IMG/VR virus record: IMGVR_UViG_3300010885_002037 | Coordinates: 1-33,894 of that record | Reading direction: 5' to 3' (one strand) | From: a virus | Length of the DNA: 33,894 bases | In this document: one piece after another, positions 16,368 through 21,633 of the stretch | Layout of the letters: each line of letters begins with the position of its first letter | Numbering within the stretch: position 1 is the stretch's first letter | The notes under the pieces: model-generated | Seen by the model: the letters and a program-made list of their open reading frames with translations, nothing else | Databases searched by the model: none | What the model was told of the DNA's origin: nothing | Program-made: the position numbers and the translations under genes

Positions 16368-16497
16368 TTATCTTGCCGATTGGTACATTGGCGTTTCAAA
16401 GCGCAGGGGCTGGGCTGAAGTTGTGCGATTGCTTGCTCAATACCCTGATGATGAACACGACCTTAAACAGTTAATTAAAAAGAAACTAGGAAAATGA
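16294..16497 (+). CDS. Small basic protein of unknown function, start uncertain
   Basis: The C-terminal 44 residues (LDYLADWYIGVSKRRGWAEVVRLL...DLKQLIKKKLGK) look like a genuine compact helical protein and run past the upstream gene's stop. The N-terminal part overlaps that gene by 74 bases and is low in hydrophobics, so the true start is doubtful. ATG at 16294 (67 aa) is my choice. TTG at 16279 is next to an AAGAGG and is possible. The stop is shared with the methyltransferase ATG (ATGA). No domain is recognised. Confidence 0.55.
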   Translation: MQEKDGNNGEQESAKRSSKSRSKLDYLADWYIGVSKRRGWAEVVRLLAQYPDDEHDLKQLIKKKLGK

Positions 16498-17279
16498 ATG
16501 AGTTGGCTCTTTTCGCAGGTGCTGGTGGAGGAATACTTGGGGGACATTTGCTCGGATGGCGAACAGTCTGTGCCGTTGAGTGGGAGCAATACCCAGCTAG
16601 CGTACTTGCCGCAAGACAAAATGACGGACTTTTGCCGCCTTTCCCGATTTGGGATGACGTTCAAACCTTTGACGGAAAATCGTGGGCAGGAATTGTTGAC
16701 GTTGTATCTGGAGGCTTTCCATGCCAAGACATCAGTGCTGCAGGAAAAGGCGCAGGAATTGATGGAGAACGATCAGGAATGTGGAAAGAAATGGCACGGG
16801 TCATTCACGAAGTTAGACCAAGATACGCTTTTGTGGAAAACTCACCAATGCTCTCTCGTAGAGGACTTGGAGTTGTCCTTAGAGATTTGGCCACGATGGG
16901 GTTCGATGCGGAATGGGGAGTGTTGGGAGCGTCAGATATTGGAGCTAAACATCACAGACAGAGAATTTGGATTGTTGCCCGACAACAACAAGTTCTTTCA
17001 CACGCCAACCACAGGAGCGGACGGTGGGAGCAACAGTCGCAAAGCATTAAAGAAACGCAAGGAGGCAATATGGCCAACACCGACCACTCCAACGGGGGGG
17101 GGAATGCTGGAGGCTCAGGGGCGCAGAAAAATGCAGTGAAAAATGGGACTTACGTACCATCTTCAATCAACCCGAGCCTGTACGAATGGTTGATGGGTTG
17201 GCCGCAAGAGTGGACAGACTTAAAGCCGTTGGAAACGGACAAGTTCCACAAGTGGCAGCAATTGCATGGGAATTATTAA
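16494..17279 (+). CDS. C5 cytosine-specific DNA methyltransferase
   Basis: The 261-aa enzyme would transfer a methyl group from S-adenosylmethionine to carbon 5 of cytosine in DNA. Motif I is ALFAGAGGGILG (5-16), motif IV is GGFPCQDIS (73-81) with catalytic Cys77, motif VI is FVENSP (113-118) in place of the usual ENV, and motif VIII is KHHRQRIWIVA (152-162). The target-recognition region (about 165-230) is short and polar. The end, YEWLMGWPQEWTDLKPLETDKF, matches the motif IX/X-side tail of phage Dcm relatives. No partner restriction enzyme is present, so it probably protects phage DNA. A second long frame overlaps most of it. Confidence 0.92.
   Translation: MNELALFAGAGGGILGGHLLGWRTVCAVEWEQYPASVLAARQNDGLLPPFPIWDDVQTFDGKSWAGIVDVVSGGFPCQDISAAGKGAGIDGERSGMWKEMARVIHEVRPRYAFVENSPMLSRRGLGVVLRDLATMGFDAEWGVLGASDIGAKHHRQRIWIVARQQQVLSHANHRSGRWEQQSQSIKETQGGNMANTDHSNGGGNAGGSGAQKNAVKNGTYVPSSINPSLYEWLMGWPQEWTDLKPLETDKFHKWQQLHGNY
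16498..17139 (+). CDS. Overprinted frame inside the methyltransferase gene, unknown function
   Basis: A 213-codon frame, shifted +1, begins at an ATG 4 bases after the methyltransferase ATG, so one AGGAAA site could serve both. The product has a Trp/Cys-rich middle: AFHAKTSVLQEKAQELMEN, ECGKKWHGSF, WKTHQCSL (113-120) and WPRWGSMRNGECW (131-143), and later WPTPTTPTGGG. From memory, sequences with 'FxAKTS...ECGxKW...WKT.QCSL...WPRWGSMRNG' are annotated next to or within phage cytosine methyltransferases, which suggests that both frames are used. Random codons would leave 213 codons open only about 1 time in 28,000, a rough estimate. ATG at codon 53 (16654) is another possible start. The function is unknown. 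Confidence 0.55.
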   Translation: MSWLFSQVLVEEYLGDICSDGEQSVPLSGSNTQLAYLPQDKMTDFCRLSRFGMTFKPLTENRGQELLTLYLEAFHAKTSVLQEKAQELMENDQECGKKWHGSFTKLDQDTLLWKTHQCSLVEDLELSLEIWPRWGSMRNGECWERQILELNITDREFGLLPDNNKFFHTPTTGADGGSNSRKALKKRKEAIWPTPTTPTGGGMLEAQGRRKMQ

Positions 17280-17291
17280 CGGAGAGGTTAA

Positions 17292-17627
17292 ATGACAGAA
17301 AAAGAGTATGACCCACACGAAGCAATCAACTATATCTACACGCACAGTGGCGATTTTGCAAAGGCAAAAGGACGTCTTGCTGGGCTGGAGGTTTATAAAA
17401 GTTCGCTTAAGGCAATTATGATGAAGAAGTCTAACGAGACCAGTCTTGGCGGACAGGAACGTGAGGCTTATGCCAGCGAGGATTATCAAAACCTTGCAAA
17501 AGCTATAGATGAGGCAACGATGCAAGCCGAAGAGTTAAAGTGGAAGCTTGAGGCGGCTAAGATGCGCTTTCAGGCATGGCAGACAGAATCAGCAAACAAC
17601 CGACAAATTGAAAGACTTACACTATGA
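17292..17627 (+). CDS. Conserved phage coiled-coil protein, unknown function
   Basis: The 111-aa protein is nearly all helix: EAINYIYTHSGDFAKAKGRLAGLEVYK, a central EREAYASEDYQNLAKAIDEA, then EELKWKLEAAKMRFQAWQTESANNRQIERL. I recognise this order, with 'W.L.AA..R...W....A.NR' at the end, from phage early proteins of unknown function near recombination genes. GGAGAGG lies before the ATG. It overlaps the next short gene by ATGA. Confidence 0.7.
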   Translation: MTEKEYDPHEAINYIYTHSGDFAKAKGRLAGLEVYKSSLKAIMMKKSNETSLGGQEREAYASEDYQNLAKAIDEATMQAEELKWKLEAAKMRFQAWQTESANNRQIERLTL

Positions 17628-17788
17628 TGATCACAGAAGAACTCTTAATTCTTAAAAGCTTAATACGTTTCTTTGAGGAAGCGTTATCTAAAGGTGACCC
17701 TGTTTTGATGCTTGAAATATCGGTAGACATTGCTGAGTCTGGTGAAAAACTAGAGCAGTTGGCTTGCGACCACGCAAATGGCCACTAA
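17624..17788 (+). CDS. 54-aa acidic protein (short gene)
   Basis: The gene starts at the ATG overlapping the previous stop (ATGA) and ends with TAA at 17786-17788, inside the next gene's first codons. The product begins MMITEELLILKSLIRFFEEA and is acidic and helical, with LMLEISVDIAESGEKLEQL in the second half. No domain is recognised. Coupling on both sides and a normal amino-acid composition support it as a gene. Confidence 0.65.
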   Translation: MMITEELLILKSLIRFFEEALSKGDPVLMLEISVDIAESGEKLEQLACDHANGH

Positions 17789-18065
17789 ATCAGAATTAAA
17801 AGCACATTATGCTAAATTGGCACGATTGGGCTGCGTGTTGTGCGCCCATCTTGGACACGACACCTATGATCAGCCAGTTGAAATTCACCATTTGCGAAGA
17901 TACGGAATCCCCCGTGACCAAGCCCCAGCAATCCCCTTGTGCGCTGGACACCATAGACACTTCAAAGATGCAGTTCACCAGCTTGGGGCTAAAGGATTTG
18001 AAAAACACTGGGGTTTTTCCCTCGAGGACAAACTCTTGGAAGTGGAATCTAAGCTAAATGAATAG
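17778..18065 (+). CDS. Ref-like HNH recombination nuclease
   Basis: The 95-aa protein has CVLC (19-22), EIHHLR (35-40), IPLCAGHHRH (52-61) and VHQLGAKGFEKHWG (66-79). This spacing of Cys pairs and His pairs matches Ref (phage P1 recombination enhancement function) and related short HNH nucleases, which bind zinc and cut RecA-bound DNA. The family link is firm in motif order, but activity is unproven. It lies among other recombination genes (RusA is two genes further), fitting a role in processing recombination intermediates. It overlaps both neighbours by a few bases. Confidence 0.78.
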   Translation: MATKSELKAHYAKLARLGCVLCAHLGHDTYDQPVEIHHLRRYGIPRDQAPAIPLCAGHHRHFKDAVHQLGAKGFEKHWGFSLEDKLLEVESKLNE

Positions 18066-18795
18066 AATAGTTTGCTGGTTTAGCTGTGGTGCGGCAAGTG
18101 CTGTGGCAACTAAACTCGCCCTGAAAGAAGTTAAAGAAGGCCAAGAAGTTGTTATTGCATACACAGAAGTTAAAGAAGAACACCCTGACAACAAACGATT
18201 TTTAGCTGAATGTGAAGAATGGTTTGGTCAAAAAATTGTGATTTTGGGTAATGATTTTTACGATAGATCTATTTATCGGGTTTTCGAAAAGAATTACATC
18301 AGAACACCCAAAGGCGCACCTTGCACTCGTTCCCTTAAAAAACAAATAAGAGAGCGTTTTGAAAAACCAACAGACAGGCAAGTTTTTGGTTATACAGCCG
18401 AAGAACAAGCCCGACTGGATAGATTCATCGATGCAAACAACGATGTAAACATTTGGACGCCATTGATAGACAAAGGATTGGGTAAAGAAGACTGCTTGGC
18501 TATCTTAAAAAACGCCAATATTGAATTGCCAGCCATGTATAAATTGGGTTATCACAACAATAATTGCATAGGTTGCGTCAAAGGTGGAATGGGTTATTGG
18601 AACAAAATTAAGGTAGACTTTCCTGAACATTTTGATCGAATGGCAAAGCTAGAACGATTTAAAAGCCAAACAATATTTAAAGACCGTTATCTTGATGAAC
18701 TTAAACCCACTGATGGCAATTATCCGCAAGAACCAAATATTGAATGCAGTATCTTTTGTCAAATGGCAGAACAAGATTTAAATGCTGGTTCTTAA
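18058..18795 (+). CDS. PP-loop ATPase / PAPS-reductase-like protein
   Basis: The 245-aa protein opens with IVCWFSCGAASAVATKLAL. The variant PP-loop SCGAAS (9-14) would bind ATP or PAPS like the SGGxDS loop of the adenine-nucleotide alpha-hydrolase fold. Other features are APCTRSLKKQIRERFE (about 98-113), a common 'C-T...K' segment of phage PAPS-reductase relatives, and a CIGCVKGGMGYW motif near residue 190 with two Cys. Real sulfonucleotide reductases use a C-terminal ECGLH motif, which is absent. It may therefore modify nucleotides, tRNA or DNA sulfur rather than assimilate sulfate. The role is unclear. It begins 8 bases inside the Ref-like gene. Confidence 0.72.
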   Translation: MNRIVCWFSCGAASAVATKLALKEVKEGQEVVIAYTEVKEEHPDNKRFLAECEEWFGQKIVILGNDFYDRSIYRVFEKNYIRTPKGAPCTRSLKKQIRERFEKPTDRQVFGYTAEEQARLDRFIDANNDVNIWTPLIDKGLGKEDCLAILKNANIELPAMYKLGYHNNNCIGCVKGGMGYWNKIKVDFPEHFDRMAKLERFKSQTIFKDRYLDELKPTDGNYPQEPNIECSIFCQMAEQDLNAGS

Positions 18796-20415: not shown

Positions 20416-21633
20416 ATGCAAATCAAAGAAGTCGCTGTAGATAAGCTAATCCCTTACGCAAAGAACAGCCGAACACATAGCGATCAACAGGTCGCACAAA
20501 TTGCCGCCAGCATTAAAGAGTTTGGGTTCAGAAACCCTATTCTTGTAGATGGGGTTGGCATCATCGCTGGACACGGACGATTGCTTGCCGCCCAAAAGCT
20601 GGGATTGGCTAAAGTTCCCACCATTGACTGCTCAGATATGACCCCAAGCCAAAAGAAGGCTTATATCATCGCTGACAATAAGCTGGCACTCAACGCTGGA
20701 TGGGACACGGCAATGTTAACAATTGAAATGCAAGAGCTAGAGGTTGAAGGATTTGATCTTGAACTGCTTGGATTTGATGAAAAAGAGCTAAACGCCTTGC
20801 TTGAGCCTGAAATTGTCGAAGGTTTAACAGATGAGGACGATGTTCCTGACATTCCTGAAGAGCCAAAGTCTAAGCTGGGCGATATATACATTCTTGGCGA
20901 TCACAGACTGATGTGTGGGGATTCCACCAGCATTGATGCGGTAGAAAAGATGATGGACGGGGATAAAGCTTCGTTAGTGGTCACTGACCCACCGTGGAAC
21001 GTAGCGTATGGCACAAACCTTGCCAATAACGCACAGGGATATAAACAGCGCACCATTATGAACGACAACTTTGAGACTACCCAAGAGTGGGAAGACTTCT
21101 TGTCAGGATTTATGGGTAATATCATCGCCTTTACCATGAAGGGTTGCCCGATCTATTGCGTGATGGGAGCCTCAGAATGGCCCGCAATTGATAAAGCTTT
21201 AAGGGACGGTGGCTTTCACTGGTCTAGCACCATCATTTGGGCTAAAGATACCCTTGTGCTATCCCGTAAGGATTACCACACCCAATATGAACCGATTTGG
21301 TATGGCTGGAAAGACGATGGCCCACGGATCTGGACGGTACAAGACCGTAAACAATCAGACGTATGGGATTGCAAGAGACCTAAAAGATCAGAGTTACACC
21401 CAACCACTAAGCCAGTAGAACTGATAGAGAGAGCAGTCCTAAACTCATCAAATGCTGGCACTATTGTGTTTGAGCCATTTGGCGGATCAGGGTCAACCCT
21501 AATAGCTTGTGAAAAAACAGGCAGGAAAGCCCGTGTAATGGAACTTGACCCCAAATATTGCGATGTAATTGTTAAGCGTTGGGAAGACTTCACTGGTAAA
21601 AAGGCAGTTCTTTCGGAGTTAGAAAAGGTATGA
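20416..21633 (+). CDS. ParB-domain / adenine-N6 (or N4-cytosine) DNA methyltransferase fusion
   Basis: The 405-aa protein joins two domains. Residues 1-130 are ParB/Srx-like: KLIPYAKNSRTHSDQQVAQI, then IKEFGFRNPILVDG and IIAGHGRLLAAQKLG (49-63). Residues about 155-395 are an amino-methyltransferase: GDIYILGDHRLMCGDS, catalytic DPPW (191-194), then SELHPTTKPVELIERAVLNSS, the SAM-binding FEPFGGSGST (about 352-361) and MELDPKYCDVIVKRW. Motif IV before motif I marks the beta class. Such fusions are common in phages and probably modify phage DNA against host restriction. It lies just upstream of the terminase, so modification might be timed with packaging. No clear ribosome site precedes the ATG. 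Confidence 0.9.
   Translation: MQIKEVAVDKLIPYAKNSRTHSDQQVAQIAASIKEFGFRNPILVDGVGIIAGHGRLLAAQKLGLAKVPTIDCSDMTPSQKKAYIIADNKLALNAGWDTAMLTIEMQELEVEGFDLELLGFDEKELNALLEPEIVEGLTDEDDVPDIPEEPKSKLGDIYILGDHRLMCGDSTSIDAVEKMMDGDKASLVVTDPPWNVAYGTNLANNAQGYKQRTIMNDNFETTQEWEDFLSGFMGNIIAFTMKGCPIYCVMGASEWPAIDKALRDGGFHWSSTIIWAKDTLVLSRKDYHTQYEPIWYGWKDDGPRIWTVQDRKQSDVWDCKRPKRSELHPTTKPVELIERAVLNSSNAGTIVFEPFGGSGSTLIACEKTGRKARVMELDPKYCDVIVKRWEDFTGKKAVLSELEKV

Follow-up and report, generated by a model that had tools for sequence, protein, structure and literature searches.

The methyltransferase locus of a 33.9 kb virus record from IMG/VR (33,894 nucleotides; hereafter the window, meaning the whole stretch of DNA analysed) contains a long second reading frame nested in a C5 cytosine methyltransferase gene. 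This raises the question of whether the nested frame encodes a protein and, if so, what that protein would do. Our analysis indicates that the locus very probably encodes a two-subunit DNA cytosine-5 methyltransferase, whose subunits, here denoted alpha and beta, are encoded in two frames of the same DNA.

Two overlapping frames and a G tract

The locus has the following features.

16485..16493 (+): Shine-Dalgarno-like TAGGAAA region preceding the alpha and beta starts, assigned from sequence
16494-17279 (+), 261 aa: alpha ORF, the C5 methyltransferase frame as assembled
16494..17093 (+): alpha with C5 cytosine methyltransferase motifs I-VIII, to the G tract (PF00145, PHROG 363); FAGAGG at 16512, GGFPCQ at 16710, VENSP at 16833, RQRIW at 16956
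16498-17139 (+), 213 codons: +1 ORF, which carries beta as far as the G tract
16498..17093 (+): beta in the +1 frame, to the G tract (PHROG 1008, E=8e-14); blocks WKTHQCSL at 16834, WPRWGSMRNG at 16888, IWPTPTTP at 17068
17094..17102 (+): G9 tract, the swap point of both frames
17103..17279 (+): beta C-terminus with motif IX, here in alpha's frame (PHROG 26627, 35493 and 1008 matches)
17166-17213 (+): motif IX segment INPSLYEWLMGWPQEW; relatives have the same segment in beta's frame
17195..17308 (+): alpha C-terminus with motif X (VDRLKAVGNGQVPQVAAIAWELL...KRV), displaced to the third frame

As the original prediction had described, the two ORFs begin at ATGs 4 nt apart behind AGGAAA (16494 and 16498; sequence context ...CTAGGAAAATGAATGAG), and the +1 frame stays open for 642 bases (16498-17139). 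Alpha matched PF00145 (E=4.7e-32) and contained the C5 catalytic motifs I, IV (PCQ), VI (ENx) and VIII. However, the claim that the main frame keeps all methyltransferase motifs proved wrong: motifs I-VIII are in this frame, and motif X (GLAARVDRLKAVGNGQVPQVAAIAWELL) lies at 17195-17278 in the third frame of the window copy. The protein search proposed for the 213-aa product returned PHROG 1008 (E=8e-14), and no significant match to the beta sequence was found in PDB, Pfam or NCBIfam. Downstream of the G9 tract, alpha's frame reads INPSLYEWLMGWPQEWTDLKPLETDKF..., where PHROG families 26627, 35493 and 1008 match. Because PHROG 1008 matches both this tail and the upstream +1 ORF, the tail is taken to be beta's own end; beta extends beyond 17139 in another frame, and the nested frame is larger than was predicted.

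Both proteins in the window copy switch frame at the G9 tract (17094-17102). Since the length of this tract exchanges both C-termini, neither chain is complete as assembled. In relatives, motif IX lies in beta and motif X in alpha, while in the window IX lies in alpha's frame and X in the third frame; this is not the layout of single-chain enzymes of the M.HhaI type, in which one chain holds I-VIII together with IX and X. One site in the window's close clade carries a run of 8-11 G. Motifs IX and X were in phase in 160 of 164 relatives, and the out-of-phase copies, the window among them, made up 4 of the 19 with at least 8 G versus 0 of the 145 without such a tract (Fisher P 1.3e-4). Natural slippage and assembly miscounting of the G tract both fit these copies. 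A one-off assembly error was rejected as a full explanation, since independent contigs of relatives share the frames; assembly or sequencing error may possibly affect the length of the tract only. It is conceivable, although doubtful, that the G tract acts as a reversible switch within a doubly coding gene, with slippage swapping the C-termini of both proteins together. If so, one mutation would toggle the phage methyltransferase on or off, or give alpha a motif IX tail.

Other genes of the window were also inspected. An HNH-like protein, read from sequence, is encoded at 17778-18065 and has an 82-codon +1 ORF inside it (17809-18057); its +1 frame was open (>80%) in 39 of 54 relatives versus 2 of 64 for a neighbour gene. 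Positions 18058-18795 encode a phosphoadenosine phosphosulfate reductase-like protein. A ParB-domain DNA methyltransferase fusion lies at 20416-21633, just upstream of the terminase gene, implying that the phage has a second, unrelated methyltransferase.

Conservation of the second frame and selection upon it

The window alone gave weak evidence for a coding +1 frame, since, when its first 200 codons were shuffled synonymously 20,000 times, 978 shuffles (4.9%) matched the observed open length, a rate that reflects the bias of the codon usage itself. Across 288 distinct genes, the longest +1 stretch averaged 257 codons versus 109 in shuffles, and in 229 of these genes it was longer than in all 100 of their own shuffles; the corresponding +2 values were 49 and 56 codons. 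The +1 partner was kept in 425 of 427 distinct loci.

The first set of relatives comprised 80 viral contigs picked via the +1 protein. These had two long ORFs whose starts were 4 nt apart in nearly all contigs, the +1 ORF being the later one, and whose ends usually lay no more than about 30 nt apart. Because of the way this set had been picked, four more sets were drawn by the methyltransferase alone. In loci L092-171, selected in this way, the +1 frame was open over a median of 98% of the gene and the +2 frame over only 16%. The Klebsiella-type set resembled the window type (+1 median 98% open), and the +1 frame was 73% open in the Paenibacillus-type set (versus 14% for +2) and 88% open in the mycobacteriophage-type set, the beta start lying inside alpha in both of these types. 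Openness of the +2 frame in the methyltransferase-selected sets ranged from 14 to 38%. The frequent +1 stops and unreduced synonymous variation that would speak against the original prediction were not seen in the methyltransferase-selected loci.

A genome scan with one genome per species yielded 80 loci, many from metagenome bins. The methyltransferase lay one frame before beta in 78 of them, with overlaps of 506-1261 nt; one of the remaining loci was fused and one was at a contig edge. The loci came from Proteobacteria, Actinomycetota, Bacillota, Bacteroidota, Verrucomicrobia, Planctomycetes, Synergistota, Spirochaetes, Patescibacteria, Poseidoniaceae archaea and others. In a genus sampled from a Pseudomonas locus (149 genomes), beta was found in 9 genomes and PF00145 in 100, indicating that the beta type is one branch of a larger family. 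Within this sample, 30 ordinary single-chain C5 methyltransferases had 7-35 stops in the +1 frame, and the +1 frame was 96-99% open in all eight examined loci with beta. Codon bias as the cause of the open +1 frame was rejected on the basis of these 30 ordinary enzymes.

Selection was assessed in 33 disjoint close pairs. Single changes were classed by their effect in each frame (first letter alpha, second letter beta; S silent, N altering) relative to a neutral expectation with a transition weight of 2. The ratios were SS 8.2, SN 3.5, NS 0.21 and NN 0.07 for alpha codons 1-60; SS 7.4, SN 2.9, NS 0.85 and NN 0.22 for codons 61-172; and SS 2.35, SN 0.88, NS 3.29 and NN 0.21 for the C-terminal region. 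Relative to doubly silent changes, those silent in alpha and altering beta occurred at a normalised rate of ~0.4 (depletion P 8e-4 for codons 1-60 and 4e-5 for codons 61-172), and beta was the protected frame in the C-terminal region (P 5e-136), where beta-silent, alpha-altering changes reached 3.3 times expectation and doubly altering ones 0.21; it should be noted that these P values overstate independence because the sequences are related, although the data represent 195 clusters at 75% identity. Two ordinary neighbour genes showed no comparable depletion in the same test. At about 0.84-0.90 amino-acid identity, differences at fourfold sites were 0.57 in the neighbour at 17292 versus 0.19 in alpha; the contrast with alpha in third-position rates was less clear for the neighbour at 17778. 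Codon 2 of alpha (Asn), which creates beta's ATG, was AAT in 235 and AAC in 1 of 236 cases, against an AAT:AAC count of 1166:1388 elsewhere in the same alpha genes.

These substitution patterns, read from aligned relatives, show purifying selection on both frames. Together, conservation, dual-frame selection and the near-fixed AAT support the overprinting with shared initiation that had been proposed, the starts being near-coincident. An untranslated +1 frame, whose openness would stem from codon bias or from the methyltransferase sequence itself, would account for the shuffles that equal the open length in the window alone; it is extremely improbable given the openness of this frame across distant groups, the selection seen in it and the many +1 stops of ordinary C5 methyltransferases.

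Division of the methyltransferase motifs between two chains

The most conserved part of beta was its C-terminal GxLNPxWVEWLMGxPxGWTDL, preceded by variable blocks headed by WPTP or LPTP. Motif IX lay in beta and motif X in alpha, a layout of the M.EcoHK31I type (I-VIII and X on the large chain, IX on the small one), in 284 of 427 distinct loci; in the remaining loci, IX or X was unrecognised by simple patterns. The window copy lacks this layout because of its G tract. Where alpha ends after motif VIII (e.g., L086, L088, L090, L464 and L473), IX and X both lay in beta. In L473 and L464, the GNGQVP motif X seen in window-type alpha was located in beta, and this relocation is the strongest sign that the two chains form one enzyme. 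In fused mycobacteriophage genes, IX and X both lay in alpha's chain, and in Babsiella-like actinophages a single chain contained motifs I-VIII, then (W/L)PTP blocks and EWMMGWPAGW, and then motif X.

Fused mycobacteriophage genes (L091 1772-2275, L355-L413) had a beta-like +1 ORF opposite the catalytic part, with LPTP blocks of its own, which is either a relic or still expressed.

The predicted structure of a short fused relative (L396) had a pTM of 0.74, with C-terminal blocks mostly at 89-97, and aligned end to end with M.HhaI (Z 23.3, rmsd 3.3, 235 residues). The beta profile matched the fused family (probability 97%, E 1.7e-10), and the fused family profile matched canonical enzymes (E 2.4e-36). 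The L396 fold and this profile chain, from beta through the fused family to canonical enzymes, make motif IX the best reading of beta's end. In a direct profile comparison with canonical enzymes, the beta segment landed on motif IX at ~1% probability, the segment being short. The AlphaFold model of beta alone had a mean pLDDT of 58.6 and was confident only at the motif IX end (81-88); a fold search from this model was dropped because the model was too poor.

The suggestion that the second protein is a partner of the methyltransferase thus gained support from motif IX in beta and, in other lineages, motif X. It had alternatively been suggested to be an anti-restriction factor, for which we found nothing that would not apply to phage methyltransferases in general. 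That beta is produced but serves an unrelated purpose, for example in anti-restriction or regulation, is very improbable. The fused actinophage enzyme lacks beta's middle part (WKT...WPRWG...), fused enzymes have no counterpart of beta's N-terminal part either, and beta has no Pfam or NCBIfam match, all of which would suit an unrelated product; however, the overlapping methyltransferase was nearly always present (78 of 80 genome loci, with one fused and one at a contig edge), and beta carries motif IX and sometimes X.

Programmed frameshifting could instead yield a single chain, in which translation from the alpha start would shift by +1 after motif VIII to give I-VIII, the TRD and IX, leaving the upstream +1 frame idle. 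Natural in-frame fusions exist, and several lineages with an alpha ending just past motif VIII (L086, L088, L090, L464 and L473) have the TRD, IX and X in the +1 frame. However, the near-fixed AAT codon preserves beta's own ATG, beta's first 60 codons are constrained, most alphas retain their own motif X, and several internal beta starts of the Paenibacillus type have a Shine-Dalgarno-like sequence upstream, so that we consider frameshifting quite improbable.

The best reading of beta is as the subunit that confers specificity in a split C5 methyltransferase, a kind of enzyme exemplified by M.EcoHK31I. From the structure of C5 methyltransferases, cofactor binding and catalysis would fall to alpha, with its motifs I-VIII and X, and target recognition to beta, whose variable (W/L)PTP region and motif IX form a putative small target-recognising domain. 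One mRNA with two starts 4 nt apart would allow both chains to be made near each other. The beta start was ATG in 194 of 203 genes, the alpha start was ATG, GTG, TTG or located upstream, and purine-rich runs preceded the start in most sampled relatives. The overlap may be tolerable because wherever one frame is essential the other is relaxed: the catalytic half of alpha would face the less constrained N-terminal half of beta, and the C-terminal domain of beta a relaxed alpha linker. Self-methylation against restriction is the role generally ascribed to phage methyltransferases. Alpha and beta may assemble into one enzyme that methylates phage DNA, probably against restriction.

Known systems, occurrence and significance

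In 1995, Lee et al. reportedly placed the coding sequence of the smaller M.EcoHK31I chain in an alternative frame within the gene of the larger one, and the small chain here also lies in another frame of the same DNA. M.EcoHK31I (E. coli, YGGCCR) is, like the enzyme proposed here, a two-polypeptide C5 methyltransferase, the likeness being one of described motif layout: its larger subunit carries I-VIII and X, leaving only IX to the smaller (PMC3404938). It differs in that here the starts are 4 nt apart with near-complete overlap, beta has 230-380 aa and several (W/L)PTP blocks, and the pair is phage-borne and found in hundreds of lineages, some with motif X moved to beta. The small domain of C5 methyltransferases (motif IX and the variable region) makes specific base contacts (PMC3404938). 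We infer that the target-recognition domain is on beta, unlike in M.EcoHK31I, where the predicted domain is described on the larger chain (PMC3404938).

M.AquI, a split C5 methyltransferase, also has its motif set divided between two chains (PMC3404938), and is resembled by the lineages in which alpha has I-VIII only and beta holds IX and X (L086, L088, L090, L464 and L473). The window type differs from M.AquI in having X in alpha and an overlap over nearly the whole length. M.HhaI and M.HaeIII share the catalytic motifs and the fold of the fused relative, but are single chains without a second frame.

In PHROG, family 363 corresponds to alpha and families 1008, 26627 and 35493 to beta fragments; the beta families are labelled 'DNA methyltransferase' or unknown, and the overlap is not described there. 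We found no description of this overlap in phages in searches of the open-access literature. Two-chain C5 methyltransferases with IX alone on the small chain are already known (M.EcoHK31I). As far as searched, the novelty lies in the size and age of this class, which is spread over phages and genomes and mostly goes unannotated, in its almost complete overlap and coupled starts, and possibly in a poly-G switch.

Annotation usually lists one gene of the pair, and not always the same one. The pair is present with one CDS annotated in E. coli phage SHAK7693, Salmonella phage SEN5 and Lacticaseibacillus phage R23.9; beta and not alpha is annotated in Pseudomonas phage phPA-G; and both are annotated as 'DNA methyltransferase' in Paenibacillus and some actinobacteriophage records. 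An E. coli prophage copy (L497 3000-3761) is a RefSeq pseudogene (internal stop) that retains the beginning of both frames.

In prokaryotes, long same-strand overlaps are considered rare. The present overlap is old, covers two genes over nearly their whole length, and is found again in hundreds of phages and in many phyla of bacteria and archaea. Motif X, which lies in alpha in some lineages, in beta in others and in a fused chain in yet others, provides a natural series for enzyme splitting and overprinting, and the pair is directly testable since it is carried by cultured phages of E. coli, Salmonella, Paenibacillus, Lacticaseibacillus and Mycobacterium, among them Paenibacillus phage BN12 and mycobacteriophages Hammer and Nitzel. 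Since a clone of any such phage methyltransferase includes the hidden subunit, enzymes assayed as 'single' in published work may have been heterodimers. The m5C methyltransferases of Paracoccus prophages showed relaxed specificity in protection assays (PMC3925955); if they belong to the same class, their clones would also have carried the hidden subunit.
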